Shown: positions 2,080 to 64,000 of the stretch, piece by piece
Layout of the letters: every line of letters begins with the position of its first letter
How positions within the stretch are numbered: the first letter of the stretch is position 1
NCBI GenBank assembly: GCA_950295325.1
Contig: OX485809.1
Span: 26,908,001-26,972,000, forward strand
Source: Polytrichum commune
Lineage: Eukaryota; Streptophyta; Polytrichopsida; Polytrichales; Polytrichaceae
Length of the DNA: 64,000 bases
Reading direction: 5' to 3'
Made by a program: the position numbers and the translations under genes
Notes under the pieces: model-generated
The model's input: the letters and a program-made list of their open reading frames with translations, nothing else
Database searches by the model: none
What the model was told of the DNA's origin: nothing

Positions 2080-3200
2080 TAAAGGGCATTTCGTACAAGA
2101 CCAAACATTATAGCAGAAATTACGATAAATCGCCACAAAATAATTCACTGCTTGTAGCTATGAAAAGGTACTAAACAAAGTGAACACATTCTGTAAGACA
2201 CTCTTCTTGCGTAACTCTGAATAGCAACACTCACTAATTGGGATAATTACTGTACATAACATTACTAAGCAACTTGGGTCCTCATAATATAACAATGGAT
2301 GTTGAGAGTACAGTCTGAATCTGAATCTCCTTGCACAACATTTCGAGCATCCCACTGTTATATCCTAAGGGCCTGCATATGGAGAATTGAATGTTGAATA
2401 CTATTATGTAGTGCATGGCGTTCCCCAACAATTCTCATATGTTTTCCAATGTTTCCAAGAGGTGGGAGGAACCACATGATATTGGAGGAACCATATGTTT
2501 TCCAAACTATGATGGTTACTATCTATAATACTATGAAAGCATGCCAGGTGGCCATTGGTGAGCCCACGGACCTTTTGCCATTAAGAGGTCACACAGTTAT
2601 TTCGTATGCCTGCAATAGGCCGCTATCCACTGGGTGTTAAGGAGGACGCGTCCCCATCCAGCTCTGGCGACTCACATGCCCCCATGGATTTGGATGGAGA
2701 TGGAACCTGTCCCTGAAATAATACATCGTACTCAATGCCACCTTATATTAAAGTGATCACTTGCTGCGCACCAACCTCAGTATTCTGCTCAGAGTAACAA
2801 CAATGACCTTCAACACCTTGAGATCAATTACTACTCATTACATCCATTCAGCCTTTACTGCAGGCTGCCGCAACACCAACAGGAGCTAACTTACAAGACT
2901 CGATAGTGGACAGTTCCATTTGGAATGGCTAGTTCTTTGGAGATTCGGATCCTCTACTACTACAAGTACTATTATTGTATCCATCTGGTTTAGTGCATGG
3001 ACCGAAGGGATGATATAGTGAGCTAGTAGACTAGCTAGAATTTACATATCATCAGCCCAGGCATCAGAGGTCGGAAAGCTTCAGAGGAATTGGGCATGCT
3101 TGCAGTCAAGGTCTTTCGAGTGACTGAGGTGGTGGCTGCTCTCGTTCTTTATACAGAGTTTGGAGGGATTCGTGAGCTCTCAGGATACACTTGTACGCAC
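2080..3200. other. Intergenic, upstream of GULLO A
   Basis: No gene is recognised. The region must contain the promoter of the lactone oxidase gene whose coding sequence begins near 3208. TTTATACA at about 3146 could be a TATA-like box, but nothing else supports it. Confidence 0.4.
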
Positions 3201-3207
3201 AAACAAA

Positions 3208-3408
3208 ATGCGAGTGTTGGTAGAAGAACCACTTGTGATGAGATGTGTGGAGGTGTTGATGTTGTTGGTCGGGTTACTAGTACTGCAAATGCCTTCGTTA
3301 GTTGTGAGGGCTGAGGTGGCTCTACCAGTGGAGCATTGTGATGCAAAACAAGGTGGCTGCTACCTCGACAATGCTTACAGGACTTGGCCAGACAGGATAC
3401 CTTGCAAG
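3208..3408 (+). CDS. GULLO A exon 1: signal peptide and N-terminal Cys segment
   Basis: This short exon makes the family assignment complete. Two in-frame ATGs lie at 3208 and 3238. The second directly precedes a Leu/Val-rich hydrophobic core followed by a small-residue cleavage-like site (VVRA). The segment GGCYLDNAYRTWPDR then matches the conserved start of plant GULLO proteins. It ends in phase 0 at AAG/GTACCG and joins exon 2 at the Ala-Ala-Asp that opens the FAD-binding domain. It has no counterpart in the visible part of the second gene copy. Confidence 0.8.
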
Positions 3409-6174
3409 GTACCGAAATGACTCCTTTCATGATAGTGGAGATCGTGGTGACATTGTTTGGAATAGCCTTGGTACATGTGTAGAATGACCACCTGGCAGCA
3501 TTGGATCCAGAGTTGCGTTGACACCGTGTCTGAGGTGATATTATCGGAGAGATCGATCCATCCTTTGTGACATTTTCCGAACGCAGATAGTGGGTCCCAA
3601 CGTGAGATGGGGGTTTTCTAAATTGGGGGCACTAGAAGCGGAGGGAAGAAAAACCTCCGATTTGTTGTCAATTCATTTATCCATATGAATCGTGCGGAGG
3701 AAGTATCACTTGCAGTTGTCCGTGCAGCGCGACTCCGTGGTCGGTAAGCTTCAAAATGACAATCAGCTAGTGTAGATTAGTGACTGTAGAAATTACACGA
3801 CAGAGACATGGAAGGCGATTGTGTGCACAGCACATATAAGAGAGCAACCTTATGCAAGAGGATTCCTTCTTTGTACCTGTGAAATCAAAACATCGCACTT
3901 TATGAGCTATGTGGCCGTGGTATATTTCACTTTTGTCATCGTGACAAGGATGCGTTGTTTTATTATCCTTTTGCTTAATCTTTTCGGCATGTGAGAGGGG
4001 TACTAGTGCTACTGAATCCATTTTCATCAATACCCACAAACTAAGAAAAGCTTTGGATTTATTATTTGGACCTGCAGGCAGCAGATGTGGTGTATCCAAC
4101 AACAGAGGAAGAGATCGTGGCTGCAGTGGCCACGGCTGTTAAGAACAACCAAAAGATCAAGGTGGCCACCAAATACAGTCACAGCTTCCCCAGGTTCGCA
4201 TGCCCGGGCTCCAGCTCGGGTGTCATCATAAGCACCAAAAACTATTCTTCTATAGTGAGTGTAGACACTTCAGCCATGACTGTGACCGCACAGAGTGGCA
4301 TCCTGATGCGCGTCCTAACCTTCGCCATTGCTGATTCCAATCTGGCTCTCCCATATTCCCCTTACTGGGATGCTCTCACACTGGGTGGAGTGTTGGCCAC
4401 CGGAGCCCACGGCAGCTCCCACTTTGGGAAAGGCAGTGCAGTCCATGAGTATGTGGTTGGGGTGCGTGTGGTCGTACCTGCCAATGCGTCTGAAGGATAT
4501 GCGAAGGTGGTCACCTTAAATGTACAAGATGAAGATCTGAACGCCGTGAAGGTGTCCCTGGGAGTGTTGGGCGTCATTTCCACGGTCACACTGCAATTGC
4601 AGCCTGCGTTTAAGAGGAACTTGACTTTGGAAGTTCGTGATGATGCGGGGCTGGAGGACAAGATCTTCGAGATAGCCAACACAGTGGAGTTTGGTGATGT
4701 CACTTGGTTTGCCTCCACACATCAGGCTGTCTACAGGATTGATCACAGGGTTCCCAACAGCACACCGGGAGACGGTGTGAATCGGTTCTTTGGGTTCCAG
4801 CCCATAAATGGCTTTGAAGTCGAGGCCGCAAGGTCCCTTGGTGAGTTTGACCATACCCCATGACACGAAGGATCACCAAATTTGTGGTGTTCACGTTGCG
4901 GAATGAAAGAGTGTAGAGATATTGCTACTTGGGCAAGTTTGAGCTCTTTATATCTTTCTTTCCTCCCTTCTGCAGGTAAGGGCAAATGTCCAGAGTGTGA
5001 ATTGGGCATCCTGAAACGAAATTATTCTTTGGCTCTATGGGTGTGGCATGGTCGAAACTCACCATGACATGAAGGGGCTTGACCGGAGGATAGATAAGAG
5101 GTTAAATGTGAACGTGCTCAGTCCTACCCTGCAAATTTGAAGAAGTGCAAATTGCACAAAATGCACGTCCCTCTTGTATCGAAATACCATGAGAGCATGT
5201 GAGGCCATGGATCGAAAGGAGCATTTGTAACCACCAAAGCCAAAATAAACAAAATAAACAAACTGCGACCCCGTTGCATAGATATTAATTTTGTATATAC
5301 AGGCACTCTTCAATTTGCGGATTTTCTCTGACATGGCTATAAGTGACTGACTTGTTTTACAGAGCAGAACGCAGAGCTGATAGGGAATCAAGGACCTAAA
5401 TGTTTGCTCGCCACGGCTAATATAGCCCAACAAGTCGCAGTGGGGTTTGGATACGAAAAGCATGGTCACGGTTTCGAAGGCTTTCCAGTCATTGGTCCTC
5501 AACACCTTATGCAGTCCTCAAGTGGATGTGAGAGGAGCCCCAAACCCGGTTATTTTTGTCCCTGGGACCAACGTATCAAAGGGCTGCAGTTCTTTGAGTC
5601 GTCTGCAGCAATCCCAATGCACAATTTGCAAGCCTTTATTCAGGACATGAGACTCCTCAGGGAGCAGAAGCCATACAGCTTTTGTGGTTTGGACGTGTAC
5701 ACCGGCTTCCTCATCCGCTTTGTGAAGGCTTCTAGTGGTGCGTACCTGGGCGCCCAAGAGGACGTGGCCTTGGTGGACTTTTTCTATTACCGAGCTGCGG
5801 ATGCCAACACACCCAGGCTAGACGAAGATGTATACGAAGAGATTGAACAGATCGCCTTCTGCAAGTACCAGTCAAGGCCACACTGGGGAAAGAATCGAAA
5901 CCACTTCTTAGTGGGAGCAGGCAAGACGTACAAAGCAATCGACAAATTTCTTGCTGTTAAAGATAAGCTTGACCCTAAAGGATACTTTTCTAGTGAATGG
6001 TCAGATTTGGTTCTAGGCATTACTAAGCCCGTGTCAAGTACACAACAACCTTCTTGTGCACTTGAAGGTATGTGTGTGTGCACGACAGATGCAGATTGTG
6101 CCCCTGCCCAAAACTATTTCTGTCGGCCAGGGAGGGTGTACTCTGCTGCAAGAGTTTGTCGCCATGAGGCCTAA
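3208..6174 (+). CDS. L-gulonolactone oxidase-like protein (GULLO A), three coding exons
   Basis: Secreted FAD-linked aldonolactone oxidoreductase of the plant GULLO family, implicated in L-gulono-1,4-lactone oxidation to ascorbate. Exons: 3208 or 3238-3408, 4078-4840 and 5363-6174. The donors (AAG/GTACCG, TTG/GTGAGT) and acceptors (CTGCAG/G, TTACAG/A) join in phase. Starting at 3238 gives 581 residues and a classical signal peptide (MRCVEVLMLLVGLLVLQ); starting at 3208 adds ten. After the signal peptide comes a Cys-containing segment with WPDR, then a FAD-binding type 4 domain (about 58-200) with the YSHS motif at 90-93. The C-terminal aldonolactone oxidase domain has HWGK at 485-488 and a Cys-rich tail (543-577), both typical of the family. 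The gene is convergent with myosin VIII A, 744 bases between stops. Its exact substrate cannot be told from sequence. Confidence 0.9.
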
Positions 6175-6918
6175 GAACCCAATGTGGCACTTGTTCCTTG
6201 AGTAGGAAAACTTGTACGCCAATGCAACTATGATAACTCGAGCATCATTTATGAATCATGAAGGACTTGTACAATATGAACCTCACAAGGGATCTAAAGT
6301 ACATCATCTCTGTCATTTGGAGTTCCACCAGTACACCACATTGTGCAGTATGGGCATGTATTCCTGTAGAATGGTCGGATACATCAATTTCAATTTCAGA
6401 GGGGAGAAGAAGTATGGTGTGTAGGCATCAAAACCAAGACATATTCACATAAAGAAAATCTCTTGAAACAAACAACATGCTCAAAAAGCATCAGCCACTG
6501 AGACACAAACTCACCGAATTTAAATTGAACATCCTTGAACCTGGAAGAAGTATGTACATGATCATCGTAATCAAAGTTACCCTCGTGTCAAGTAAACATG
6601 GACGCCTGAATGAGGTACCTTCTACTAACCCCAATTCCCCAGCATCACTATGATTAATCACACAAGAAATTGGTAACGGTAATACCAAGTTTCAACTAAG
6701 TCGGACTCATGGCAATTGGCAGCCTTGGGTTTTTTTTGGAATATTACTATATATTACTGCTCACCTTGATGGGATGTGGCTTTGGCAGATTATCACTTCA
6801 GCACAGAGGCGTGCTTCATTCAGAACGAATATAAGGCCATGACCAGCACCAACCAGCACTATCCTAAGACAATGAAAAATGGATATCTGTCGAGCCTAGA
6901 TATATTTCTGCAAAATGA
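6175..6918. other. Convergent intergenic region between GULLO A and myosin VIII A
   Basis: The 744 bases between the two stop codons must hold both 3' untranslated regions. No further gene is seen. Short open frames at 6212-6452 carry no recognisable motif. Confidence 0.6.
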
Positions 6919-9900
6919 TTAAGGGGTGGTTCTTTTCCCCCACCATTTCTTCTTTGACTTCTCTTTCTCCTTCTCCACAGAATCTGCTTGGCAAAGCTTA
7001 TGCAGTACCGCTTTTGTCTCTCGTAATCTCACCTTGAAGTCTTTCCTCCACACATCAAATCTTCCCTTCAACTTACGGAGCTCCTCCTCAGGGCTCAGGT
7101 GTGCCTCGGTTTGGCCTGACTTCACTTCGACTAGAAAATCAACGTCATCATTAAATACCTGCTTGCGATGCTCGTACTCTCCAACAAGCTGACTGACAAC
7201 AGCACGCCCAGCATCACCCTCACTCCGATTCGTTCCATATTCAGGCCCTGTTTGCAGATATTTGTTAGTGATCTGCTCTACACTTTTTGTACCATTTGTT
7301 CCAGCATCCTCCCAGTCAAAATCTTCTTCATCTGGAGGAAGCATACGCTGGTTGATCCTATGATGCTTTGCAAGTTTGGGACGAGATTCCACAGATTCTT
7401 CTTTTGGAGGCGTTGGCACAGTTGCCTCATCAGTTACCAAGCTCTTCTTTGCAGCTGCCAAACTAATCTGCAGTGATGACATCTGTTTCTGCCACACCTC
7501 CTCCATGGATGACATCTTTGCCTCATACTCCATCCACCGTGCCTCATACTGCTGAATTTTTTGAAGCAACAAGGCATTATCTTCCTCTCTTTCTCTTAAT
7601 GCTTGCTCAGCCATTACTGCCCTCCGCTGCAATTCCAATATATATGGAGAAGATACCTTAATGGTGGCCTCTTTCTCCTGTAGAAAACCAACCAGCCGAT
7701 GAAATCATCACTACGTGTCTGATCCATATCATCACAGTAAGCTCAATACCACTACTCACCTACATGAAAGCCCAGCAAGCTCAAACCAGAAAGCCCAGCA
7801 AGAGAAACTAAATCCTGTAACACACCAAATTGATGACAAAAACTAAGGAAAATATCAGGTATTTTCTTACAGGAGAAGAATGCATCAAATAGACAGCAAG
7901 CAACTAACCTAAAAGTTCCTGAACTTCTCAATAATTGCAACTCAGAGACATGTTCTTTCAAAGTGCAAAAATAGAATCTAGATGTCTGCAGGCTTGCTAT
8001 TAAGCCACATGCGAGCCACAACTGCAACAAAATTATGAGAAAAATGACAGATTTTATGATATAAGGTCACCACATACCTCCAATTCTAATGCCTCAGGAT
8101 ATAAACTCAGCACTCTGGCAGTTACAATCCCTGTCACCTCTTTCACACTTTCATATCCTTCATCTACTGCACTGGGAGCCACTGACTCCTCTGTTTCTCT
8201 AGTTTCATCACTAGCAATGGCTTCAGCTGCTAGTTTCTCCTGAGCTTCTAGTTTCCCGTTGGACTCTGTTATACAAATCTGCAACTGTCTCTTGGCCAAC
8301 CACATGCGAGCCACTGCCAGGTGCGAGTGTTGTCAGAAAGATTTCAAAATGCATAGTGTTTATAGAGATAAGGACCAGTCTAGGTTTTTGTTCATATCCT
8401 TGGCAAAGTTGAAGATCCTGGATGATAACAGTACATTGTTATCTTCAAAGAAACAGAGAACTCAATGAAAGATGGGATGAATACCTGATTGAACCTTCAC
8501 AATTTTCTCCACTCTTGTGTGACATGCACGGCATGCAGCCAGCCTTCTTGCGTGCTTTTGAATGTACACAGCTCCCCGATGCCTTCTGAGGAACTCCTCA
8601 AAGAGCCTTCGTGCTATGGCACCTCTCACCACTATCCATGCCACAATAATATACTAAAAACGATGGCAAAGGAAGAGAAATCATTTAAAAAATGCAGTAG
8701 TATCTTGAGATACTATATACCACTTCTAGAAGCAGAGAATTTAGGAATATTTACATCTTCTGAACTTAGTTTTTCCTATCATATGCTGAGTGGCAAAGAT
8801 TCCTCAATGCTTTTAATGAACCCATTCAATTGCCAACTTTATGACAAAAGTATTACACAAATCTTCATCTGCAACTCAACCATGAGAGAAAACAGACAGG
8901 CTGAACTTACAGGATTGCAGGTAAATTGTCATCTTTCGTTTCTGTCTATACATAAGGCGAACCTTGTAGCCCTTGTACAATGCTTGCAGCCTTGTCACAC
9001 CCTGCAAGGTTCTCTGCCTCAAATCCTCCAACATTCCAATCTGGACCATGTTGTGAAAATTACTGTCAGTAACAATGATTGTTGAGCTACAAAGCAAAAG
9101 CATCAGAGGCTTCAAGAACCTCATGAAAATGGACACCAAGGTGCAGAAATTTTAGAAAGCATATTGGACGAAGACAAGGTACAAAAAGCATACTGCAGCA
9201 AATTAAAGCACCAGAAAGAAGAAAATGAAAGAACATAACTGACAAAAGTACACTACAAATGGTTGATAACAACAAACACTTCTGTGGTCGCAGAACTGAT
9301 GCTGACAACATCACCAAAAAAGTTTCTGATGTGGATAAATTGCTGAAAATTAAAACTTGAACAACAAATGTAGAGATCTCACCTGTCCAGCACGAAAGAA
9401 CAATTTTGTAATTCCAACTTGATACATTTCTGAAGGGATCCCGAATTGGTGCAGAATTGCCACACAAATGCTGAGCGGATCCTCTTGGCTAATATGACTT
9501 TTGGGGAGTAAAAAGCCGTACCTGCATGCCAAAAGATTCTCAGAAGATTAGAGACATATTACAGAAAGCTCAATAAAATGTTCAATGAAACAGGTAAGCT
9601 TGTCAAGGACACACATATAATTGTAGACTGCAAATAAATCTACTCATTCTGCCTGAAGTTGAGTCTGTCGTACATTAGCAGGCATGTCAGAACACTCGGT
9701 GCTCATTGAAGGGCACACAGGTTAGAACCAGTACGACAAGTTATTGATTCCAGAATTTCTAACCTCTTGGCAAATTCATGATGAGAATGACGTGTAGGAT
9801 AGCCAGATCGCGAAATGCGGACCACCTCTAGGACCCCACAACATCGGAGCTGCTGTAGAACCAGCTCCTGTTCATACACATTTGGAAGCTGCTTTGCGTT

Positions 9901-12900
9901 CGGCTTTATGCATCGAATGAAATGTGGCTCAGTGGTCTCCAGTCTTTGCATTAAATTGTACAATTGACCCTGAATCACCACATTGTCAGTTGATACATGA
10001 AATATTTCTTCAGCTTTTACAAAACCACTGGGTCAGATTCCACACAATGCTGGAAAAGAGCATCATTGGTATGGTTGGAAAGGCCAAGTCCACAAGAACA
10101 TAAGTCGTGGAGGCCCCACAACTCTGGAAAAACCATTCTTGAGTTTCCTATAACTGTTTATAAAATCAGATGCCAATCATAGTTACAAAATCTCCAGAAG
10201 CAATCGGAGAAACTTTGCTACATTATAATACATAGCATAAAGTGTAGTATGCCTGCAAAATACTAAGTATTTGTGGGATTGTGGCTGAGACACACCTTGA
10301 ACTTGGTTGCAACACTCAGCTTTTGAGATTCTGTACTATTAGCCCTCCGAGTTGGGCTGAGCAACTTTTGCACACCTTCTCCAATAGAAGCGACAAATAG
10401 CTGAGGCAATGCACAATCACAGGAACCCAAAAGCTGCAATAGGTCTGCATGCAGCAAGTCCCTGTTCTTCTCAAGGAAGCCATTTGTTTCATACACTACC
10501 TGAAGCAAACAGCTAAAGTTAATTCGAGTTTGTTTTGAATTTCAACAAAAGAATCCACGACACTCCAGAGTATACTAAAGTGAACTAGTGCAAGACATAC
10601 GGCCTGGACACAAAATTAAGTTGACAGTGCCCAACCTCTACAAATGCACAACCTATAGCAGATAGAAAGGATTTTTGCACATAGAAGAAGGGTAGGGTCA
10701 GAATGTTCAATGAACATTTATCCGGAGCAAAAAAAATTGCCACAGTAAATACCACAATATGGAAATAGCTGCATACCTCTCCAGCATAGTGACAAATTCG
10801 AAACGTCCTCTCACGCTCTCCCCTGAAACAGAGGTTTCCTTTCAGATGTTCCTTCAGCTTATTTGCAAGCGTTATATCTGATGCTCGTGGAAACATGCAC
10901 TCTTCATCCAGCAATGAGATCATTCCCAATGGTCTCTGTCAAGTAATATGCACAAGAATTACCATCAAACTCTGCAATTTAAGGGTCACATAGAATGTGA
11001 GCATCCCCAATAATAGTTTGACAAAGTGACTAACCTCTAGAGAAAGACCAGTTCTTAGTCCTTCAATAACTAACTTATGATGAAGTATGTTGACAACTTA
11101 TCAATAACACTTGATCATCTTAAAAACCATCTTTATAACCTCTTGACAGAGTGACTCACTCTCTCAATAAGGTCGAGGCACTCCTGGTTGTCTTCAAAGT
11201 CCACCATTGTCCAATCAATACTCTCAGAGTTGTACTCCTGAAAGCTCACCACAACAAGTTGTCAACAAAACTCCAAAACGCTCATACACTCTTGTAAGAG
11301 AACGAAGTAAGAAAAAGTTAGAATAGAGAGGAGAACCCAAACTTGCAGTTCTTCAAAACACAAAGAAAAGATGGAATTCATTGACCAGTATCATATCATA
11401 CCTCTTGCTCAAGCTTGAAAAGATGGCGATTAAAATGTTGTTGCAACCTTTCATTTGCATAATTTATACACAACTGCTCAAAACTGTTTCTCTGCAACCA
11501 AAGTGGACAATATTTAAGAAGGTAAGTGGTAAGAAATGCTATAAATATACAAAACCCTTTCAGAAGATTATCCATGATCTTAAATCAAATATTCAAATGG
11601 ACTTGGAACATTCACATGACTACTCACGAACCAAAGGAATCAGATTCTGACAGGAATGCAAGTCACATCTTCTGTCTACAACAAAGCATGTACTGAATAT
11701 ATGATGATATACAATTGGATTGTGACTGGCCCAGTCAGTGAGATAACCTGAAAAGATTCAAAACCATAAATGTCCAGGATGCTAATTGACCTTCCTGTCC
11801 GCTTTTTGCCAACTTCCAATGACTTATTCACACGATCAACAAGCCAATCAAATAGGCTTGCATAAATAGCTTTTGCAAGCGCATCTCTGGAGTCAGTTGC
11901 CTGCAATACAAGAAAAAGATGAGAATAGCTTCACTCAAATCCAAGTTAGAATATCAAAACAAAAAACTGATAACACCTTGGCAAATGATTCCTTCTGGAA
12001 AGAGTTAACTTACCTTCTAATATAAGCCAGCAAACCAGCAAGTAGCCATTGGAATGCTTCCAACACAAATTCAGAAATGGTGGACACAATTTATTTCCAC
12101 GTCATCATAAAACTAACCCCTTCTTGACAATCAAGTGCAAAATTACCTGAGCGTGTGTCAATCTTTGTACAATATCATCACCCCCTGCACGGATCCTCCG
12201 AGTGGAAAGTGCCGCCACAAGCTCACTAACCTTGCAGTGAAGCAAAGTTGCAGCCACCTCCACCGCTGCTTGCACAAAAGAAACAACATTGTTACCTACT
12301 CTGTGACTATCCATTCAAGATTGTGGAAACCAAATGCTCCTTAAGCCAGCTGTGCTGGTACTGTTGACCACATCAAAGGTGGCTTATTTTGCAGCACTTG
12401 CAAGACTATCCAAGGCATTTTGGATTGATAAACATCAAACGAAGTAGACATGAGCAGCTTCACAGAGCCAAAATGTGAGTCTGACTGCTCTATTGATCAC
12501 TCTCTACAAGGTTTCAGTCTCCAAATGACCATCCTTAAAATATTGACAAAACCACAAAATTTCCATACAAATGCAACGGTGTCCCAAGAACCACCTTCAT
12601 GGTTATCAACAGTAATATGGTTGTCTTGCTCAACAACACAGAATGTGATATTTCCAATCCACAGGACAGCTGCAAGCATTTCAAAAGCTTGCTCCTGATC
12701 TTCTTCACTGATTTGTACCACGTTCATAGCACTCTGCAATGCAATATCCCCACTAATCACAACCAGATTTGTAATCAGGTCTACCGCCAGATAGAACAAA
12801 CCTATTCATATTAGCTGCAAGACAAGTTGTCAATAAATCTGGAACCATCCTCACCATAAGATGGACCTACAATGCTCAGAGAAAACATTTCTTCACTTGA

Positions 12901-15900
12901 ATACACACTGATTTTCAAAACATGATGAACAAACCCCAGAACATAAGAAAAAGTGCTTGCAGAAGACCAGGCGCACCCTCAAAAGTTCAAATTGCTTGGC
13001 ATCGTCAACCTTGTCAATAGCCATACAGCTACTTTGATTTAGATACCGATACTCCTTGGCAGGTCTTAGGTTCAGACGGTCTGCTCATAATATACCTCCA
13101 TGTGTCAGAATCAAGCATCAAACAAACTGGAAGACCAAATAAATGAAAATGATGAATTCAGCTGCATCGTTGAGAGAGTAATACCTCGCAATGAAGTGTC
13201 AGCTCCAGCACATAGCTGATAAAACACATGATATGATCGTTCACCCTCAGCTTGCTGTACAACCCTTGACTGTAATCACATTAAGCCACCACAGTAGCTG
13301 AAAAACAAGATGCTAGAACTGGAGAGTCTTCTCAGTTGCAAAAAATATTGAGCACTCAGGTTCAAGCATTTACAAAAAAAACAGTACTTCTATTGTTCAG
13401 TTATAGACATGTGATTTTAAGCATGCAACAATGCCAACTATGTCATTTCACACTAATCAGAAAATAACAATCTAAGAATTCAAGAAGTGCTTGAGAAGGG
13501 CAGCCATACCTTTTCGAGTAAATCTTCTCGCCCAAACATATAAGATCCAATGCAAAGGACATCCCGACAAATGCCAAGGTCAGAAGTGGACGATCTGATC
13601 CCAAGAATGTAATAAAATGCAGAAAACAAATTGACATAAAAAGAAGGCACTAACGAGCACACTCAGAAGAATATCCTTTAATTTCCACTTACAAGTTTGA
13701 ATCTTAGCCCCACATATTTTGCCAACTTTGTCAAAATAAATGTCAATCAGCTTCCCCTGTTAGCAAGGCAACAAAACTAATGAACATAAACAATCTTCCA
13801 AACTCCAATTCACAATGGTATAAAGCATGGCATACATTCTCCAGAAAAATTAGGTCCAGAGGCCACCACAAGAACATGGCCAAGTTTTACAGTCCCCTTT
13901 GCCCTCTCATTGTCTTGCTCATGTATGATAAAGAACAACAGACAGCATGCTCTGCAACTTGTGAAAAGAATGGAACACATCATTTCCTTCTGAAGGAATG
14001 GTGAACCCTATGAAGAAAACTCTTCTTACAAAGCGACTTGAATTGTCATTCCTCAAGGTTTTGGCATTGCCAAATGCTTCCAGGATTGGATTTGTTTGCA
14101 AGATTTCATTTTCGATCCCACCACCGCCTCCAAGAGCAGCGAGATACTGCATGGCAATCTTGGCTGTTTCTGTCTTCCCTGCACCACTCTCACCACTAAA
14201 CAATAATGTGAACAATACGTCCCTCTCGCACAAAAGTATAACACCACCACTTATACTTAAAAATCAAAAAGAAACAAAATTAAGACACAAAAAGCATCGT
14301 CTACATATAGGTGCCTTAACATTCCCTTTATTTCTCTACATTACATACTAAACAGTAGTCTTCATTATACGCTGTATACATCCCAACACAGAAGAACCAC
14401 AATTTTGTCACAGTGATATAAAATTATAAAGATGTATGTCAAGTACCTGATGATGATAGACTGATTTACACCACCTGCAAAACACAAAATTAACTAGTAT
14501 AAACATCCCATGTGTATGACCATTGAACCTAGAAATTGAATTGTTCAAGAATATGTGTCACTAGCAAAACAGTATCTTTGGTGTCAAAAGCATTCATCGC
14601 AATTAAGATAGATACATATGTTGTGATGCATTTTGTCAATAGTTCAAACCTTGAATCATTGCTCCAAAAGCACTATCTGCGGTCATGTACACATGAGGCT
14701 GGGAGCTTTCTGTAGTTCTCTTGCGATACGCTTGAACATTGTCTGGACCATATATGGGAACCTTCTTAAATGGGTTGACTGCAATTAAGACTGGACCGGC
14801 CCTAGTCTGCATAATTCCATGATATTGTTAAAAATCAATGCACCATTTTGACTTCCAATTGCAGACAAATATGGGCCTGATTTGAGCTATAAGTCATATA
14901 TCAAACAAGAAAATACACCACAAGCAAGTACATAATGGTTTTGACTTGAAGCTCATCTAAATCTTAGAAATATACATATATTTATGATTCAGCACCATAC
15001 CTCCTGGGAGCATGACAGGTCCTTTATTGTACAAATGACATTATAAAAGAGGACATAAGTACTTACATATATCTTATCAAGAGCATATCGGTAGTCTAAA
15101 TCGTGAAGAACTGAAGGCTCATTGAGGTAGCTAAGTTTGATGAGGTCATCAACTCCCTCCAAGATGTCAGGGTTTGCAGGTTGAATCTTTGCAGCACTCA
15201 CTCTAATCACCTGCACAATATCATCGAATCCCCAACCAATTCACAAGGCATTAAACAAAAACCTTCGCTGGAAAATGAAAGCATTCCTAGTCATAGACAT
15301 TCACTGGATTGGAATATCAGCAGTACAATTCTTACTTGCTGGTCAGATGTTCGGACAACAGCCTCTGTATCTTCTGCAGATAGAACAGTTCCAGAAGTCC
15401 AAATGTTTTCCAAGTTCAAGCACCAAACCCGTAAATTCTGCAAACACAACATCCCAACACAGATAAGAGCTTCAGTATTTAACAACACCCTGCAATTAGT
15501 TGAATAATACTGGGAAGCTTTATATTTGCATGCATGCATGTGCGTGTTGACCACTCCAAAATCCTGTTCTCTGCTCACATTTTCATACCAATGCAGTGGC
15601 GAATCATTAAGAGTTCAGCAAGAGTTGAGAAGCCTTAAAATTGTAATGATTATAACAATGTTGCAGTGGTCATGCCCTTTTAAATCTCAAAGCTATTCAG
15701 CCCGGAAAACTATACGGAAGAATCTAGCGACAACAATCAGGGCAAAGTTTTGAAGAGTAGGTGCATACCTTCTTTAAGCGTAATATACCGTCATCCTTCC
15801 ACTTCTTCCCAGATGTGACCACAGGGGTAGGGTTTTGTTGAATAGCTGTATCTAGAGCAGGAATATGTTCTGGCATAGAGAAGCTGAAACTAGATTGCTC

Positions 15901-16377
15901 CTGTGAGCTGATGTTCGATTCATCAGCTCCTCCCGAGAGCATGATGACACGACCATTTTCATAAGCCGGATCTCTACTGCTTTCGACTGCGACAAGCATG
16001 TCAAATGGACTTCGCGTAGAGACCTCGGACCCCATGACACATTTAGCTGAATAATGAGCATCAGCAGCAGGTAAACCCACTTTTCCAATGGGAGAGTCCA
16101 CATCAGCATCAACAACACAGAGTTTCCCCAACGATCCTGCGGTGGGTACTTTGGTTGGCATGGCAAGTGTATTCGTTACCGCCCCTGGATGCTTCCTAGC
16201 TCGCACTGACGAAGGCAATCTTGCTCTGGATGTTGGCCTTACAGGAAGTGGTGGCGGCCTAACATCCTGTTTGTCATAACCTAAATTTTCTTTCTCCTGC
16301 ATGTCAACACCCGTTCTGATCGACTCCAACATTTCTTCTAGTGTACTCCGAGGGCCGGAGCCCTTGGGAGGAAACAT
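6919..16377 (-). CDS. Class VIII myosin heavy chain, copy A (23 coding exons)
   Basis: Plant-specific actin-based motor; class VIII myosins act at plasmodesmata, endosomes and the cell-division site. The joined frame encodes 1343 residues. Exon 1 gives a 203-residue N-terminal extension with the class VIII signature ([11 protein letters not shown], then [17 protein letters not shown]). The SH3-like and motor domains follow: P-loop GESGAGKT at 348-355, switch I NDNSSRF at 396-402, switch [10 protein letters not shown] at 620-627, then the actin-binding region ending IRCIKPN. The neck (about 921-1040) has four IQ motifs. A coiled coil ([19 protein letters not shown] onward) and the class VIII tail end in [10 protein letters not shown]. 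All introns are GT-AG and every exon junction keeps frame. ATG at 16377 is chosen because [11 protein letters not shown] matches the paralogue. No truncation is seen. Confidence 0.95.
6919..16377 (-). other. Exon map of myosin VIII A
   Basis: Coding exons in transcript order: 16377-15769, 15437-15336, 15210-15067, 14806-14650, 14474-14447, 14195-14030, 13756-13693, 13523-13510, 13269-13185, 13080-12977, 12733-12595, 12265-12147, 11900-11748, 11491-11402, 11237-11160, 10935-10777, 10499-10296, 9969-9764, 9521-9383, 9040-8911, 8631-8485, 8313-8078, 7677-6919. Lengths sum to 4032 nt (1343 codons plus stop). The P-loop is in exon 6, switch II in exon 13, the IQ motifs in exons 20-22 and the coiled coil and tail in exons 22-23. 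Boundaries were set by eye from GT-AG sites, reading frame and agreement with copy B; each could be off by a few bases. Confidence 0.85.
13510..13523 (-). CDS. 14-nt microexon of myosin VIII A (exon 8)
   Basis: ATTTACTCGAAAAG lies between an AAG acceptor and a GTATGG donor. It supplies two bases of a Tyr codon plus Leu-Leu-Glu-Lys, the conserved LLEKSRVV strand that follows switch I in myosins. Without it exons 7 and 9 do not join in frame. The same 14-nt exon is present in copy B at 53384-53397. Confidence 0.8.
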
Positions 16378-16624
16378 ATTTAGTAGTATGATGATTCTCC
16401 CCCTTGTCAATCTTAGTCTTCAAATGAGCCCTCAAATGATGCCTACAACCATACCTGCAATATGGTAGGTAGGTATCCTCCTAATGCATTTTCTTCCTCA
16501 ATGTGATCATACCGTCCTCAGAGGCAACACGTTACTAACATCATCACCTTAGGCTGATTGATCCTGATGAATAGCTACCACACATGTCACATGCTGGAAG
16601 AAGCAAAGCAAAGCAGAGAGCAAG

Positions 16625-20082: not shown

Positions 20083-20413
20083 CATTTATTAAACGCGGTG
20101 AGTACCAATAGAACAAAATTTCCCACACATGCTATAGATTGTCGGGTCCCATTTGTTGTGGGATAAGTACTATTATATACACTTAAATTGTTCCAAAAAG
20201 AGAACACCGATGTACAGTTCATGCTTTCCTATTTTAAATAAGCCAAGAGATAAGCCTAGAGTATTCCCCGGACTTGGTCAATTTTGGAATCTTCGGCTAT
20301 ACACTTGGTCGAAGGAATCGAAATTCAAATTTAAATTTCTCAAAGCGGAAACAATATTCCACCGCCCACATGTAACTTTGGCAAGCTTAATAAGACTTGG
20401 TACTCGAGATCAA

Positions 20414-20922
20414 GGGCCACTTCACACACGAGACTGAGAGCCCGTGACCATTACACTTCAAGCACTCTCATTGGTGGAAAAGGCGGAGCCGGTCCAAGTT
20501 CGCTACTTCACACTACGCTTGAGGGACCAACGGAGTGAGTATGTGAATGCACGATGGATGTAAAGTCTACGTGGATTCCTACATGGCATCGATTGGATCA
20601 TGTTTCATGGTCGCTTGGATTATTTTCAAAAACCATCTCTTGGAGGTAGGTCTTACACAAAACCGGGAGACCATGGCACTCTGAACGCTCACAATCATTG
20701 ATTTATTATATTTTATCATGTGTGAGAGGATCCACATGAATAGAAATTCGTTGAAATAGCATATGGTTAAGGGCCCGGTCACGTATGACCTTCACACTAC
20801 GCTTGAGGGTCCGTGACCACACTACATGGTTTTGGAGGTGTCTTGGGACAACCTTTGGACACTTTCTTTTGGGCTCTCACAATTTCATGGTCACGGCTCT
20901 TGGCTCGTGTGTGAAATGGCCC
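20414..20922 (+). mobile_element. Tourist-like MITE, family 1, copy 1
   Basis: Terminal inverted repeats GGGCCACTTCACACACGAG / CTCGTGTGTGAAATGGCCC bound about 509 bp. The flanks are CAA and TAA, consistent with a decayed 3-bp TAA target duplication as in the PIF/Harbinger superfamily. Landmarks shared with other copies are CTCATTGGTGGAAAAGGCGG, GGACCAACGGAGT and ACAAAACCGGGAGACCATGG. There is no transposase. Confidence 0.8.
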
Positions 20923-26215: not shown

Positions 26216-26501
26216 GTTGGTGGAAGGTACGTACACTCTAAACTCCGTAATACCAACCTCCATAATGTCACACACCCTCTCTAATATCCCGAAACCGTAG
26301 GGAACGGATGTTCGTAGTTCAAATATCGCTCCTTATTGTCACATTTCTCTCTCTCATATCATGCAATTTGTCATTAATGCAAATCACCCAAGAAGTCAAC
26401 CCACACCCTTGCATTGCGCCACATGTCAACATGTGGAGCGTCACCCTCTTCTTCTTCTTCTTATGCCACTCATTGAATGTTGGTGCATGCGTCCACCGCA
26501 T

Positions 26502-27350
26502 CGCCCCGGAAGGCCAAGTGGAGTGGACCACACTAGCGTAGGTGACGGGAGAGAGAATTCAAACCGTCCTCACAACTCCTTCGTGTCATTCCATAGTGTC
26601 ACGCGCTACACTAATTCTATAGCATCATGCATCCATGTTAACACTACAAAACCTTGTAATATCACGTGCACTTTGGTTGCCACATACGTGATACTACGGA
26701 GTCTAAAGTGTATCTATCTTATGTTACGACACAATGCCAACTGACTAACTAGCTCGATCTTGCACTTCCCTAAGTTACGCCACATCGCCCGGGAAGGCCA
26801 AGTGGAGTGGACCGCATTAACGTAGGTGATAGGAGAACGAATTCAAATCGTCCTCGCATCTCCTTTGTGTCATTCCGTGGTGTCACACCCTACACTAATT
26901 CTATAGCATCACACATCCATGTTAACACTACAAAACCCCGTGATATCACGTGCACTTTGGTTGCCACAAGCATGATACTACGGAGTCTAGAGTGTATCTA
27001 TCTTATGTTACAACACAATGTCAACTAACTGACTCACTCGCTCTTGCACTTCCCTAAGTTACGCCACATCGCCCGGGAAGGCCAAGTGGAGTGGACCACA
27101 CTAGCGTAGGTGACGGGAGAGCGAATTCAAATCATCCTCACAACTCCTTTGTGTCATTCCATAGTGTCACACGCTACACTAATTCTATAGCATCACGCAT
27201 CCATGTTAACACTACAAAACCCCATAATATCACGTGCACTTTGGTTGCCACAGACGTGATACTACGGAGTCTAGAGTGTATCTATCTTATGTTACGACAC
27301 AGCGTCAGCTGCCTGATTCGCTCGCTCTTGCACTTCCCTAAGTTACGCAT
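26502..27350 (+). repeat. 284-bp tandem repeat, three units
   Basis: The units begin at 26502, 26786 and 27070 with CGCCCCGGAAGGCCAAGTGG or CGCCCGGGAAGGCCAAGTGG. Each runs through GTCATTCC...GTGTCAC, CTAATTCTATAGCATCA and TACGGAGTCTA to TTGCACTTCCCTAAGTTACGC. The spacing is exactly 284 in both steps. Similar open frames of about 70 codons occur in each unit, but 284 is not a multiple of three, so they are by-products of the repeat. This looks like a small satellite array. Confidence 0.85.
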
Positions 27351-28270: not shown

Positions 28271-28273
28271 TAA

Positions 28274-28769
28274 GGGCCACTTCACACACGAGCCAAGAGC
28301 CGTGACCACAAAATTGTGAAAGTGTCCAAAGGCCCCCGTCCCAACACACCTCCAAACTCATCATGCATGTAGTGTGGTCACGGATGCTCAGGTGTAGTGT
28401 GAAGTCATTTGTGACGGGTGCTCAACCAAATGCTATTTCAATGAATGCATGTTCATGTAGGTCCTCACACATGATAAAGTAGAATAAATCAATGGTTGTG
28501 AGCATCTGGAGTGCCATGGTCTCCCGGTTTTGTGTTGGGCCTACCTCCAAGATGTGGTTTTTGAAACTAGTCCAAGTGACCATGAAACATAATCCATTCG
28601 ATGCCATGTAGGACTCCATGTAGACTTTACATCCGTCTTGCATTCACATACTCCGTTGGTCCCTCAAGCGTGGTGTGAAGCGAACTTCGACCGGCTCCGC
28701 CTTTTGCACCAATGAGAGTGCTTGAAGTGTAATGGTCACGGGCTCTCAGTCTCGTGTGTGAAGTGGCTC
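28274..28769 (-). mobile_element. Tourist-like MITE, family 1, copy 2 (inverted)
   Basis: This is the reverse orientation of the family at 20414-20922. It starts GGGCCACTTCACACACGAGC and ends CTCGTGTGTGAAGTGGCTC, with the CCGGTTTTGT and ACTCCGTTGGTCC landmarks reversed. The flanks are TAA and TGA. It shares the single TAA at 28271-28273 with the neighbouring family 2 element. Confidence 0.8.
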
Positions 28770-28960
28770 TGAGTTATCGCATGTTGCCTGATGTGAGGTT
28801 CATGAGGAGGTAAGTTAATGGTGGCCGGTGCTCAGTGGGTAGCTTGGAGAGCCCGAAGGGGAAATCTACCCAGAATCGTTTTAAAGGTTTCCTTTCAGTT
28901 TAGCAGCTTATTGAAGAAAATCGGCATTTCTTACGATAGAGTTGATTGTTTGTGTCGTTA

Positions 28961-29461
28961 GGGCCACTTCACACACGAGACTGAGAGCCCATGAACATTA
29001 CACTTCGAACACTCTCATTGGTGGAAAAGGCGGAGCCGGTCCAGGTTCGCTTCACACTACGCTTGAGGGACCAACGGAGTATGTGAATGCGAGATGGGTG
29101 TGAAGTCTACGTGGATTCCTACATGGCATCGAGTGGACTGTGTTTCATGGGCACTTGGACTATTTTCAAAAATCACCTCTTGGAGGTAGGCCTAACACAA
29201 AACCGGGAGACCATGGCACTTTGAACGCTCACAACCGTTGATTCATTTTATTTTATCATGTGTGACGACCCTCATGAATAGATATTAATTGAAGAAAACA
29301 TTTGGTTGAGGGCATGGTCACATATGACTTCTCACTACACTTGAGGATTCGTGACCCACACTACATGATTTTGGAGGTGTTGTGGGACGGCCTTTGGACA
29401 CTTTCTTTTGGGCTCTCACAATTTCATGGTCACGGCTCTTGACTCGTGTGTGAAGCGACCC
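28961..29461 (+). mobile_element. Tourist-like MITE, family 1, copy 3
   Basis: It starts GGGCCACTTCACACACGAGA and ends CTCGTGTGTGAAGCGACCC. An exact TTA is on both sides (28958-28960 and 29462-29464), the clearest target duplication in this family and typical of PIF/Harbinger-like elements. Confidence 0.85.
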
Positions 29462-29464
29462 TTA

Positions 29465-32100
29465 GGACTAACGTTCACAAGTCCAAAATCAAAGGAAGAG
29501 GACATAAATGTGTGTGTTGGTATTGTTGGGCAACCATGACTACCTAGACAAAAATACTTGCTCGCCTTTTAGGAGTTAAGAGGCACTTTGTGGCTTGTTT
29601 ATACTAGTATCATTGGATCATGACCACCACTCTCTTGATTTTTTTCATTGGTTGAGAAATGAGTGGTGGTCTCACTTGATTTTATACAAGGTCATCCAAA
29701 AATAAGATTGGCCGTTTCATTAAAAGGGATCAAAGGGACCAAAGAAGTTTGAATGGATGAACAAAACTATGTGGACTTTTACATGGTATGCAATGGATAA
29801 TGTTCAATGGTCTACGCAATTCTACATCAAGCCCGCCCCGAGAAGGTGAGACTAACACAAAATCACAAGACCATCGAGCTTTAGAATCTAACAATCCTTG
29901 CTTTCTTATAACTTATTGTGTAAAAAGGGCCACATGAGTGGGATGTTAATGAATTAACCAAGGAGCAAAAATTATTATGATGTTGCTTGATCTTCATGTT
30001 GGTCTAAGTCTACATGTCATCCCATAACAAATACCACGAGAATTAGAGCCCCTTCATAACTAATTCACCCTTTCAAATGTGAATACACTTAATGGGTGCA
30101 CACAAGCATGCTTGTATCTACATTTCCTCCATGGGCAAGCCCTTAAGTTGTAACATGGTTAGTTGAGAAATATACACCCACTATAATTTGGGTGGGTGAT
30201 AGTGGTACAGGTTGCACCAAAAAATCATAACAATCATCTAAAAAATATCCAGTCACTTGTCCTAATATTAAAATGACAACAATCATCTAATCCTATCATG
30301 ATATAGTGGACGTGCCAATCTATGGGTGATGTATAATTGATTTCTTGTGCATTAATATTTGGTCTATGTATGGGTGCATGTTGCTATAGTTTACAATCAT
30401 ATGGCCCAAAATACACCACTTATTTCACTCAATTTAGACATGCAATTAGTCTGGTCCGTAACTAAAGTAGTATTGAACCTATTGTTGTAGGTGCCGAATT
30501 GTTGTGACTATTGTTGTTATTGAAGATGTCATTCCAGCTAGTATTTGCAACCCATAACACATTGTCATTTATTGAGCATATAAGTTAGTTACTATTGCAG
30601 TTGTCATCTCACACCAAAATTGTTCCTGCTAAACCATAAACAAGTCACACGTAACACACAACACCATACTAGGTAAATTTCCAAACACGCACACATTAAA
30701 AATATATAATTTGAATACACCCAAATTCACTCATATAGTAAACAAAGACACATACACCGGATTTACACAAACCCATAGGCATAGTTTTTTAGCTTAGGGT
30801 AGTACTAATAAGAATATAGGACAAAAAGACATATTAATAAAATTTGCATTCGTTGTTGTAATTTAGATTTTGGATAAAATAAAACCCATGGAAGCAGTCA
30901 TGGACGACTTAAAATGTGATTTTTGTACCAACTAGGTGTCTCACATAAGTTTTATTAGGACAATTCCATGTTAATCCAAGTAATTGAGGATGTTGATTGA
31001 CAACTCCTACACTCATTCAAGAATAAGAGGTTGCAAGTCTCTCAATCATAGTACATGCATTGGTGATAGTCTTTCAATCTCATATTATTTACCTTGGCAA
31101 TACTGTAGTATGTTAGTGAGTTCATTTTAATTGGATCTTGTGCGGTGCACAAGCATAAGTACAACCATTGACAATAGTCTTGCATAAAGTATATTGTTTT
31201 TGTCTCCTTGCCAAAGCCAAGGGCATTTTGATGTGGTCAATAGTCATGTGTTAATTAACCTCTTAAGTGTGACTTGAATTGATAGTACAATCACCCTTGT
31301 AGGGTTCCCAATCTTCTTTGATTGATTTTTTAATTCAATAAGACAATCAAGCAATAGTCTTTTACTTCAATTCCAAGTGGAAGTAACACTTATCTATCCC
31401 ATAACTTATCTATCCCATAAGACAATAGGCCAAACCATTGTTCAAGTTAAAGGGCCATAATCTTGGTTCATTTATACCATTTTCAAAATTTCAAATCGAA
31501 CACAATAACTCACTTTAGTTTTTTTTTAATAATTAAAAAAAAATCATTGGCAACTATTCAAGGCTATTGTTTGGTTGTGTTGATCATCATGATTCAAATA
31601 ACATAGATTTTCCCTTAGCATACATCAAAGTAACTTAATCACGTTTATATAAATATTTGGCACTTACTAATGTTCAATACCCAAGTGCCATATCTCCTTT
31701 CACCAAGGATTACTTTACCTTTCATAGATAATGGTCTTGCCCTTTTAGCTTCCAACCTGCCAAAGGTTAGGAAGACGAAAACCTTCTTCTCTTAACATAT
31801 TAAATGAGTGTTAATTCATCTTAACATCAAGATCACTCAAAAATAAGGAATTGCCTACCACAAATTCAATTTGCACATTCCCCATTGTTAATTCTCTCTT
31901 GGCACAACGTAATTGGGAGTTTCATATTCTTCCCCTCAAAGCATTCACAACAAAACTATGGTCTTTAGTCTATTCGAATGGATAGTTATCATATGAAGGA
32001 AGTCAACCTTCAAGACTAAGGTACCATTGTTTCATGACTGAGTTCATCCCTTCATATCAAGATTGCTCAATCAAATTGAATTGTTATTTTAAAGTCCACT
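29465..32100. other. Gene-free AT-rich spacer
   Basis: There are no long open frames, RNA genes or intact repeats. A stretch near 29715-29900 (GGGACCAAAGAAG, ACATGGTATGCAATGGAT, GACTAACACAAAATCACAAG) is a faint relic of the family 1 MITE interior. Confidence 0.45.
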
Positions 32101-37155: not shown

Positions 37156-37169
37156 AGCAGTGCATTCAA

Positions 37170-37665
37170 GGGCCACTTCATGTGTGAGACTGAGGGCCCG
37201 TGACCATTGCACTTCAAGCACTTTCATTGGTGGAAAAGGCAGAGCTGGTCCAAGTTTGGACCGCACTACATTGGAGGGACCAACGGAGTAAGATGGATGC
37301 GAGATGAATGTAAAGTCTACGTGGATTCCTACACGGTATCCAATGGATCGTGTGTTCAAAGTCACTTGGATTGTATTTCAAAAACCACCCGTGGAGGTAG
37401 GCCTAACACCGGGAGACCACGGCACTCCGAAATCTCACGAATGTTGATTTATTATATTTTTATCATGCATGAGGACCCTACATGAATAGGAATACATTGA
37501 AATAGCATTTGGTTAAGGGTATGGTCACAAATGACTTCACATTACACTCAAGGGCCCGTGACCGCCCTACATGATTTTGGAAGTGTCTTGGGACATCCTC
37601 TGGACACTTCTTTCATGCTCTCACAATTTCATGGTTGCGGGTCTTCACTCATGTGTGAAGTGGCC
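37170..37665 (+). mobile_element. Tourist-like MITE, family 1, copy 4
   Basis: It begins GGGCCACTTCATGTGTGAGA and ends CTCATGTGTGAAGTGGCC, with the usual interior landmarks TTTCATTGGTGGAAAAGGC and GGGACCAACGGAGT. The termini are more mutated than in copy 3 and no target duplication is clear. Confidence 0.75.
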
Positions 37666-50189: not shown

Positions 50190-50425
50190 CTGCCTTTGTC
50201 CAGCACGAGGATAGGCAGACTTGGATGATAACACAACCTATCTAGGATGACGATGTTAGCTTTGGCGGGATATCGGGTTTGTTTAGCAATGTCTTAACTC
50301 GGCGTCTTGGTACATGACATCCTTGGGGAAGACATCCTTTGCTTACATGCTGGCGGGCAGTTGACTACATGTCGATGATCACGGACTAGAGGAGGTGAAC
50401 TTTTGTGGGAGTTTCCTTCATCAAG

Positions 50426-53400
50426 ATGTTTCCTTCCAAGGGGTCAGGTCCTCGGAGCACATTATTAGAAATGCTGGATTCAATTAGCGTACAAGAGAAG
50501 GAGACAATGGAGGTATTACCGCCACCACTTCCTGTTAGGCCATCATCCAGAGCTCGCTTGCCATCTTCAGTTATTAAAGCTAGGAAACACTTAGTTCTGG
50601 ACCACGTCACCCTACCAACAAGCAAAGGCTCGACTGTGACCAGCACACCGGAGAAGAATCATCACATGTGTGATTCCCCAATCGCAAACCTGGCCTCCTC
50701 TGCCAACTCTGAAATGTGTACCCCAAGACCATATAGCAGTCAACTGGCATTGGACTCTTGTAGTGGTGATGATTCAGCAATTGGAAATGTTCAAACGGTG
50801 TCCAGGGTCATGGTGGATGAAGGAAGTTCTGATTTGGTCACATCCCCATCTTTCATTCCTGGTGCCTGCAAATTGGCGGAGGCGAGGGAAGGCGAGGGAG
50901 GAGCTGCAGTGTCGGATTGCAGAGATATTGGGTATGATTCTCAACAACCGGTAGTCATCTCAGCTGTCCAGGAGGTTGAAGTTGGGCAACCCACTTTTAG
51001 TTTTCTTACCTCAGAATCCACTTCTCCTCCTCACACTCCTGTTCAACAAGACCCTGTTGCTGCTGTTCCTATGACTCCTCCCACGACTGGCAGGAAGTGG
51101 AAGGATGATGGTACATTACGTTTGAAGAAGGTATGCAATGCAACTATTCTAAACTCTTCCTGGTTGTTCTCCTTCGTGCACCCTTTTGGTCTCCTATCAT
51201 CCGTCAAGTGGATGCCAGTGTTACCCATCAAAAAGAGGTGCAAAATTTGCACTTTTTACTCAGCGGAAGTGTATGCCTCCTCAGTGTGATATGAGTGCAT
51301 TAGATACCAATGCAGCATGTACTTGAGTGACGGAGTGCAGCTTAAGTGTAATGTCAGGGTTGAAAGTTGTAGAATGATTACGTTATTGGGTTACTGATCT
51401 GATCACCTTCATGTATTTATAAGGACATCATATTCATTGCGTGCACCCTTTCCAACTCCAGGACACTTTAAATTACCTCAATTTCTCTGAATACTAATGT
51501 AATATTGGTTTTTGCAGAATCTGCGGGTATGGTGCTTGACCTCGGGGAACATATGGATTGCTGGAGTTGTGATATCTGCAGAGGATACGGAGGCTGTTGT
51601 CCGAACTTCTGACCATCAAGTAGGTCTTAATTCTGTTCCTCTTTCCAGTTGATACCTTTTCACAAAAAAAGCACATTCACTTATCTCTCAGCAAGTTTGC
51701 TTTACTAAGTGGATGTCTTACATTTTGCAGGTGATCAGAATCAATTCCACCAAACTGCAACCAGTAAATCCTGACATACTGGAGGGCGTGGATGACCTCA
51801 TCAAACTTAGCTACCTCAATGAGCCATCAGTTCTTCATAATCTAGACTATCGATATGATCAAGATATGATATATGTATGTGTATATATATGTATATGTAT
51901 GTGGAATCAGGTTCCTGCATTGTCTCTGCCTGTTTGTAACTTTGAGCTACATAAGAGGATGTCCTAAGATGTTAAAGAGCAAGACACTAAGCTCAAGGCA
52001 AGGTGTTCTGATTCACCGTTGTCCTTGCTAACTGAATACTTGGATTACATGAACCTAGGTTCACTCTCATTCTGGATATGAGAGAGTTTACTGTCTCGTC
52101 CTCCTAATTTTGTTATGGGTTTGTGCAGACAAGGGCTGGTCCTGTCTTGATAGCGGTTAACCCTTTCAAAAAGGTTCCTATATATGGTCCAGACAATATC
52201 CAAGCTTATCGAAAGAGAACTTCGGAGAGCTCCCAACCTCATGTGTACATGACAGCCGATAGTGCATTTAGAGCAATGATGCGAGGTGCATTCTCTCTCT
52301 CTCTAGTGGAGGGCATGTGTTTGGAGTAAGAGAAATATCTGGAATATATGTTAATGCATATCACAGCTTCCAATTCTGTTGATGCAAGTCTTGTGTTCCT
52401 AATTGCTATGATCTCTGTGTATATGCAGATGGGATCAATCAGTCTGTCATCATCAGGTACATGATAAACCTTGTTGGAAGTGAATCCAAATTTTGAGGAA
52501 GAAGATTTTGGCCTTAACAACAGCCTTGGAGATGACATACTGCATAAACATATCAATTAACTAATTTGAGATCTGTATTTAGAAAATCCTGTTATTGGTC
52601 CTGTATTGAAAGTACAGGTACAAACATCTCACAAGTCTGGTTGTACATGTAGAACAGTTCTTGTGGGTAGTCCTCTTGAGTGTTCTTGAGGTATCATTTC
52701 ATGAGGACAAGCTCTTTACTATGTTATGTAGTGGTGAGAGTGGTGCAGGGAAGACTGAAACAGCAAAGATTACAATGCAGTATCTAGCTGCACTAGGAGG
52801 TGGTGGTGGGTTAGAAGATGAAATTTTGCAGACAAATCCGATATTGGAAGCTTTTGGCAATGCCAAGACATTGAGGAATGACAATTCTAGTCGTTTTGTA
52901 AGTAGTCTTGCTGTCTATATTCGACCAGATATTGTTATCTAAAATTACATCTGGCTATCATTGAAAGTAGTTTTGCATCCATTAATAGTTGATGGATTCT
53001 CTCTGAAAACATTTTGTATTGCAGCTGAAACTCATATCAAAGTACCTTGACAACTTTGCATGTAATGTCTATCATGTAGGTTTCTGGCGCTAAAGTTATT
53101 ATTTGCAAGTTGTTGCTTATATTTATATTATTGTCTTGGTGGCAGGGGAAGCTGATTGACATACATTTTGACAAAACTGGAAAAATTTGTGGCGCTAAGA
53201 TTCAGACTTGTAAGCCCTCTGAATATGGATTATTTTTCCTGCAATTATGTCTGAGATCCTGTAGTTGCTGTTTTTTCTGATGATCTTATACGTTTCTGGC
53301 TTCTTTATTTATTAGAAGTGAACCACCTACTTCTAACCATTGTGGTGTATTGTGAACTGGCTTTCCTATCTGTGTGCGTGAAGATTTATTGGAAAAGGTA

Positions 53401-63222: not shown

Positions 63223-64000
63223 CTGCAGGTACAAATGAACATAGAAAGTTCACTTAGAGTCTGGGTTTGGGTCGCCCTAACCCCATTGAAACGAGATTCA
63301 TGAGCACTAATACGTCCCCTCTCCCATGCAGAAATTATGAAGCAAAAGAATTCAAAAAGAATTCAACAACAAGAGATCCAGATGACCCACATGACAACAA
63401 AAGTGGAAGTATATATTCAACGGCCACTGGCTCAAGTCACGCAAATTAGTGAATGTACTGTTGAAGAAGGTTGTTCTTTTATATGTGTGTGTGGTGAACA
63501 CAAACCTCCTTACATTTCTCAAGCATGTAACTATTATGGTGACTGATTAATCTACTTGGGAGTCATTTTCTCTACTCGCCATGAGCAACTATCCACACAT
63601 CGGTTCCAGGTCACTTGGTTAGATGAACAGATGACCAATAGGAGGTTATTTGTTTCTCTGTTTCTAATGCTCCAATGTAAAAATACCCCATCTTAGCACA
63701 TTGGACCCATGGACCCATAACCAGATCGTCAAACAAAGAATCTGCAATGGTGGTATATGATAGGGTTGATTATTAGAACAGGGTGAAACGAAGGCTTGAC
63801 GTGGATTTTGCAAACTATAGTGAAACTGAAAACCTGAATTGAACATTAAGGGGATTGCGAAGGTCGTGAACTTGTCACTACACTACAATATACACCAGGG
63901 ATGCATTTTACATCATCAGGTAATGGAGCACGGCAAGATCAATGAGTCCAATACAGCACGTGTACTGTTTAGATACTGATCTTTCGCACAGTTTATATTT
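63223..64000. other. Probable intron 1 of GULLO B
   Basis: The 778 bases after the exon 2 acceptor lack a recognisable signal-peptide exon. The matching intron in copy A is 669 bases. Either the intron is longer here and exon 1 lies outside the window, or exon 1 has been lost. Short open frames show no motif. Confidence 0.45.

Follow-up and report, generated by a model that had tools for sequence, protein, structure and literature searches.

How can two copies of one gene be identical, silent sites included, over blocks of their exons that flank a clearly diverged intron? The question was raised by a pair of GULLO genes in the window, the whole 64,000-nucleotide stretch of DNA analyzed here (C7:26908001-26972000), which is part of a 408-Mb plant genome. 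Contigs C1-C7 of this genome resemble seven chromosomes (42-78 Mb where the length was seen), and C8 bears plastid psaA/psaB. The best PDB matches of the PsaA protein were 8htu and 6l35/7ksq/7kux/7xqp, which are structures of Physcomitrium photosystem I; taken with the seven chromosomes, they suggest a moss, perhaps one of the Polytrichaceae.

Gene content of the facing arms

Two arms face each other (3016-16380 and 64834-50423), each consisting of a GULLO gene and a myosin gene that we take, from the sequence of its coiled-coil tail, to be class VIII-like. The arms are separated by approximately 34 kb and the GULLO genes by approximately 55 kb. Beyond the arms, further homologous genes were not found within 20 kb outside the window, and the 104-kb stretch covering the window contained no N bases. 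The GULLO-myosin arms are an old inverted duplication. Identity between the arms was 68-92% in the myosins. A large palindrome of the mammalian X/Y type with arm-to-arm conversion was rejected, because it needs more than 99% identity along whole arms and homogenization was found here only within GULLO exons.

GULLO copy A lies on the plus strand, with exon 1 at 3208-3408, exon 2 (763 bp) at 4078-4840, intron 2 (522 bp) at 4841-5362, and exon 3 (812 bp with the stop codon) at 5363-6174. Copy B lies on the minus strand; its exon 1 (64475-64684 in window coordinates) falls just past the window end, followed by intron 1 (the part inside the window is 63223-64000), exon 2 (62460-63222), intron 2 (61813-62459, 647 bp), and exon 3 (60983-61812). 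Exons 2 and 3 of the two copies are partners. The myosins, used as control genes, occupy 6919-16380 on the minus strand (arm A) and 50423-59926 on the plus strand (arm B). The predicted GULLO proteins have 591 amino acids (copy A) and 600 amino acids (copy B), and the frames of both are open across all three exons. Copy A scored 709 bits against TIGR01677 (curated cut-off, 383.1) and passed the cut-offs for PF01565 (FAD_binding_4), PF04030 (ALO), and PF22906 (GULLO2-like C-terminal domain). By these sequence matches, copy A is a predicted plant GULLO-type FAD oxidoreductase (sugar-lactone oxidase), with oxidation of L-gulono-1,4-lactone as its predicted activity.

The spacer between the arms contained a 285-bp tandem repeat and several copies of a 0.5-kb repeat in both orientations, 80-92% alike (spacer repeats at 26496-27348, 20410-20921, 28273-29466, and 37166-37665); these repeats are probably remains of mobile elements. 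A decayed GULLO pseudogene with frame breaks and stops was also observed on C7, approximately 10 Mb from the window (C7:37281500-37288500). It was approximately 70% identical and not homogenized.

Silent divergence along the GULLO copies

The preliminary description of this locus had claimed that 4228-4635 is identical to the minus-strand copy, that most of exon 3 is nearly so, and that the end of exon 2, the whole of intron 2, and the start of exon 3 are diverged. All three claims agreed with the alignment. Positions 4228-4635 (plus strand) matched 63072-62665 in every base (408 bp, with flanking mismatches at 4227 and 4636), and none of the 104.7 silent sites differed. In exon 3, 6 of 547 columns differed between 5387 and 5933 (plus strand; dS 0.048, also the value for 5395-5898), and the tail beyond approximately 5934 (5934-6174, less or not recently converted) was diverged (dS ~0.25). 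No replacement divergence was found in either core (dN = 0). The junction between the cores (4803-5386), which comprises the end of exon 2, intron 2, and the start of exon 3, was unconverted, with differences of 26% near the exons and approximately 60% in mid-intron. The two introns, of 522 bp and 647 bp as first described, were mostly unalignable, and their ends were homologous.

Outside the cores, dS between the copies was 0.19 in 4078-4227 and 0.06 from 4635 to approximately 4800; it was 0.056 for exon 2 overall. Exon 1 was not homogenized (dS 0.39, dN 0.13). Within the junction, the diverged coding stretches were ~45 bp at the end of exon 2 and ~24-30 bp at the start of exon 3 (dS 0.13, dN 0.28), and the 24 codons in the coding part of 4801-5394 carried 13 replacement changes against 2 silent ones. 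The junction is either a linker that evolves fast, relative to an unlinked GULLO paralog on C2 too, or divergence shielded from conversion.

A hidden Markov model (HMM) was run on the full pairwise alignment of the copies, and three states were preferred over one, two, or four by BIC. The three-state model assigned low divergence to 4070-4802 and 5387-5933, and in the four-state fit these zones narrowed to 4228-4698 and 5387-5798, at 0.2-0.5% difference. An exon-2 core with a low-divergence state at 4228-4698 sits within a wider and weaker zone. It had been claimed at the outset that the borders lie within exons rather than at splice sites, and this held for the identical cores and for the side toward the junction, but not for the outer left edge of the weak exon-2 zone, which fell at the splice acceptor (4064-4070; the exon starts at 4078).

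Among silent-identical runs in the GULLO coding sequence, the longest comprised 132 silent sites (4228-4764). Chance is excluded, because this run was never reached in 20,000 permutations (maximum, 101.5; P < 5e-5). At the silent rate of the myosins, the probability of no difference in 105 sites is approximately 1e-27. The myosin pair had a dS of 0.68 over 617 codons, or 0.77 when the C-terminal exon was included, far above the exon cores of the GULLO genes (0 and 0.05), and a search for an unusual silent-identical run in this pair found none (P 0.42). The absence of homogenization in the neighboring myosins, also part of the preliminary description, was thereby borne out.

Raised GC in tracts, attributed to GC-biased repair, is a common but not obligatory mark of gene conversion. 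GC3 was 0.57 in both cores and ranged from 0.38 to 0.66 elsewhere in the GULLO gene, so that it was not clearly raised in the tracts and gave no clear signal of GC-biased conversion. Polarization with an outgroup gave 46 B-derived and 27 A-derived sites outside the cores, copy B being the more derived there, and was uninformative on the direction of conversion within the identical block. Upstream of the genes, a small island (3016-3061, plus strand, against 64834-64793) had one small indel as its only difference in 43 columns, in surroundings diverged by approximately 22%. Its counterpart was not found upstream of the unlinked C2 paralog, and the island is either a promoter segment that has been conserved or a conversion patch of very short length.

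Homogenized exons in other clusters

Other clusters of the same genome were compared. The chalcone synthase (CHS) and lipoxygenase families were picked before their divergence was seen; the sample was tiny, and its loci were chosen for being clustered. On C6, two GULLO-like genes in inverted order (39.22 and 39.35 Mb, 126 kb apart), unlinked to the window pair, shared a homogenized block of ~400-450 bp within an exon (C6:39221670-39222119, or L047 3171-3620, against L048). The dS was 0.03 in this block (L047:3171-3590) and 0.50 in the rest of the same exon (permutation P 6e-4), 0.15 in the preceding exon, and 0.37 in the last exon. The domain region that holds the block corresponds roughly to that of the exon-2 core of the window.

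The CHS array on C3 (C3:8879200-8894700, L057-L060) packs four copies into 15 kb, one of them inverted and the other three direct. Exon 2 had a dS of 0.07-0.18 and exon 1 (~170 bp) was 83-87% identical, whereas similarity in introns and flanks was no better than random. A CHS trio on C5 (17.92, 18.04, and 18.05 Mb, L061-L063; 0.01-0.13 Mb apart, with the middle copy inverted) had a dS of 0.03-0.13 in exon 2 and 75-85% identity in the upstream exon-plus-intron sequence. Unlinked CHS genes of one subfamily, on C2 and C3, differed at a dS of 1.5-1.8. No homogenized exon was found in the inverted lipoxygenase pair on C2, whose members lie 30 kb from each other and were 67-74% identical throughout. 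The CHS pair on C2 (3.54/3.56 Mb) was uninformative, being a recent whole-gene copy, introns too. At C5:52055304-52180481, five PAL-type genes of one exon each were noted, lying in both orientations, four of them with exactly equal Pfam scores; they are a candidate for complete homogenization.

In the clusters examined here, homogenization of exon cores was confined to linked copies and spared introns and short exons. We tentatively extend this to the whole genome of this moss, with more doubt than confidence: exons rather than genes may be its units of concerted evolution, with linked paralogs overwriting each other's long conserved exons, introns acting as firebreaks, and short exons escaping.

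Origin of the mosaic and comparison with known systems

Ectopic, DNA-templated gene conversion between the linked GULLO copies, recent and likely more than once, is very probably the best explanation. Patches of low silent divergence between the paralogs were bounded by normal divergence, and the comparison with the C2 paralog showed that the low divergence was not due to constraint at those sites. The mechanism that we infer starts from the old inverted duplication that left two GULLO-myosin arms, after which parts of exons 2 and 3 would have been copied from one GULLO gene to the other. Strand invasion presumably requires a few hundred nearly identical bases. Purifying selection would hold long conserved exons above this homology threshold, and introns and flanks would drift below it through indels and differences of 25-60%, so that tracts would end in or near exon ends. 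Exon length as the sole determinant was ruled out by the C-terminal exon of the myosins, which is 757 bp long yet unconverted (dS 1.07, lower protein identity), and by the lipoxygenase pair. Inverted order is not special, nor a requirement, because the direct-order CHS copies on C3 show the same pattern.

That conversion was repeated, as the preliminary description proposed, is plausible in view of blocks at dS 0, 0.05, and 0.19-0.25, which suggest several events. The difference between the cores (0 versus 0.05) had a P of 0.06, so that one patchy event could also account for both, and the intermediate zones (dS 0.19-0.25) did not differ significantly from exon 1 (P 0.2-0.37). Exon 1 was itself only marginally below the myosins in divergence (P 0.06), so that any count of conversion layers would be approximate.

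Conversion templated by RNA or cDNA, in which spliced message is reverse-transcribed and the product recombines with the other copy's exons, sparing introns and flanks, could explain why homogenization ends at exon edges and why identity in the C3 CHS array starts at the first exon base next to unrelated introns. We nevertheless consider it improbable. The junction of exons 2 and 3 in GULLO is the very part left unconverted, both copies retain their introns, and neither tracts across exon junctions nor precise intron loss was found; unlinked paralogs were not homogenized, although cDNA requires no linkage; and identity in the C6 tract reaches ~24 bp into the intron. An assembly or polishing artifact that equalized the exon copies is less probable again. 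Copies that are nearly identical and separated by 55 kb are known to endanger assembly, but the graded divergence (0, 0.05, 0.19-0.25), the presence of unique sequence no more than a few hundred bases from each core, the absence of N bases from the 104-kb stretch, and the similar mosaics in three further clusters located on different chromosomes, each of which shows scattered differences, argue against it.

The preliminary description had preferred gene conversion to protein-level selection and to a young duplicate of the entire arm, and both preferences were upheld. Purifying selection on protein and silent sites, acting without exchange, fits the conserved protein sequence of the exons and the dN of 0 in both cores, but the same silent sites vary freely relative to the unlinked C2 paralog. 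The dS between that paralog and both copies was 1.35 in the exon-2 block, where 28 of 54 four-fold sites differed, and approximately 1.2 in the exon-3 block. Silent-site constraint is therefore ruled out, and the abrupt steps in silent divergence within single exons also speak against selection, which we regard as highly improbable. A recent arm duplication with later replacement of the introns would explain why the exon cores appear young and has practically no likelihood, given that exon 1, both introns, the UTRs, the exon ends beside intron 2, the end of exon 3, and all myosin exons are old and that the ends of intron 2 are homologous.

If conversion keeps overwriting exons, dating by silent sites would make clustered moss genes appear far too young; duplication ages and claims of recent expansion based on coding Ks would then be wrong, and the true age would have to be read from introns and short exons. 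If exons are indeed the units, long-lived tandem genes would hold nearly identical coding cores together with unrelated introns and promoters. Mosses are noted for efficient gene targeting. The clusters offer a view of moss homologous recombination as it occurs in nature, and with them the amount of uninterrupted homology that ectopic conversion requires in a plant could be tested directly.

Exons are the usual site of reported conversion (PMC3966223). In the copepod Tigriopus californicus, conversion between GOT1Sd and GOT1Sr is, as in the GULLO pair, largely restricted to exons, and a long intron of unequal size is now unalignable; the homology-threshold reading adopted here is the one given for those genes (PMC3728101). 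One GOT1S copy is decaying to a pseudogene (PMC3728101), whereas both GULLO copies keep open frames, and a diverged neighbor gene of the GULLO pair supplies a background rate. Arabidopsis RPL9B/RPL9C are likewise plant paralogs in linkage (11 kb) that share identical blocks, with exons 96-97% identical and some introns without significant identity, but they are direct tandem copies and their identical block spans the promoter and intron 1 (PMC4679983). Mammalian BMP8A/B, an inverted pair 235 kb apart, also have a mosaic of partly concerted exons; their tracts, unlike those of GULLO, take in introns and were traced across many species (PMC2720389). Concerted evolution of moss genes has already been proposed (PMC3045890, citing Lang et al. 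2008): in Physcomitrella, hexokinases and genes in tandem arrays are reported as families that evolve in concert, which is attributed to gene conversion. In the accessible part of that report, the case rests on trees and overall similarity, and an exon/intron mosaic is not reported (PMC3045890). No prior account of conversion confined to exons was found for GULLO or for moss CHS in the literature searched, which lay mostly outside subscription journals. Ectopic conversion with exon-intron mosaics is thus already known in animals and plants, and the GULLO pair is a clear new example of it; what may be new is exon-confined homogenization in several unrelated clusters of one moss genome.
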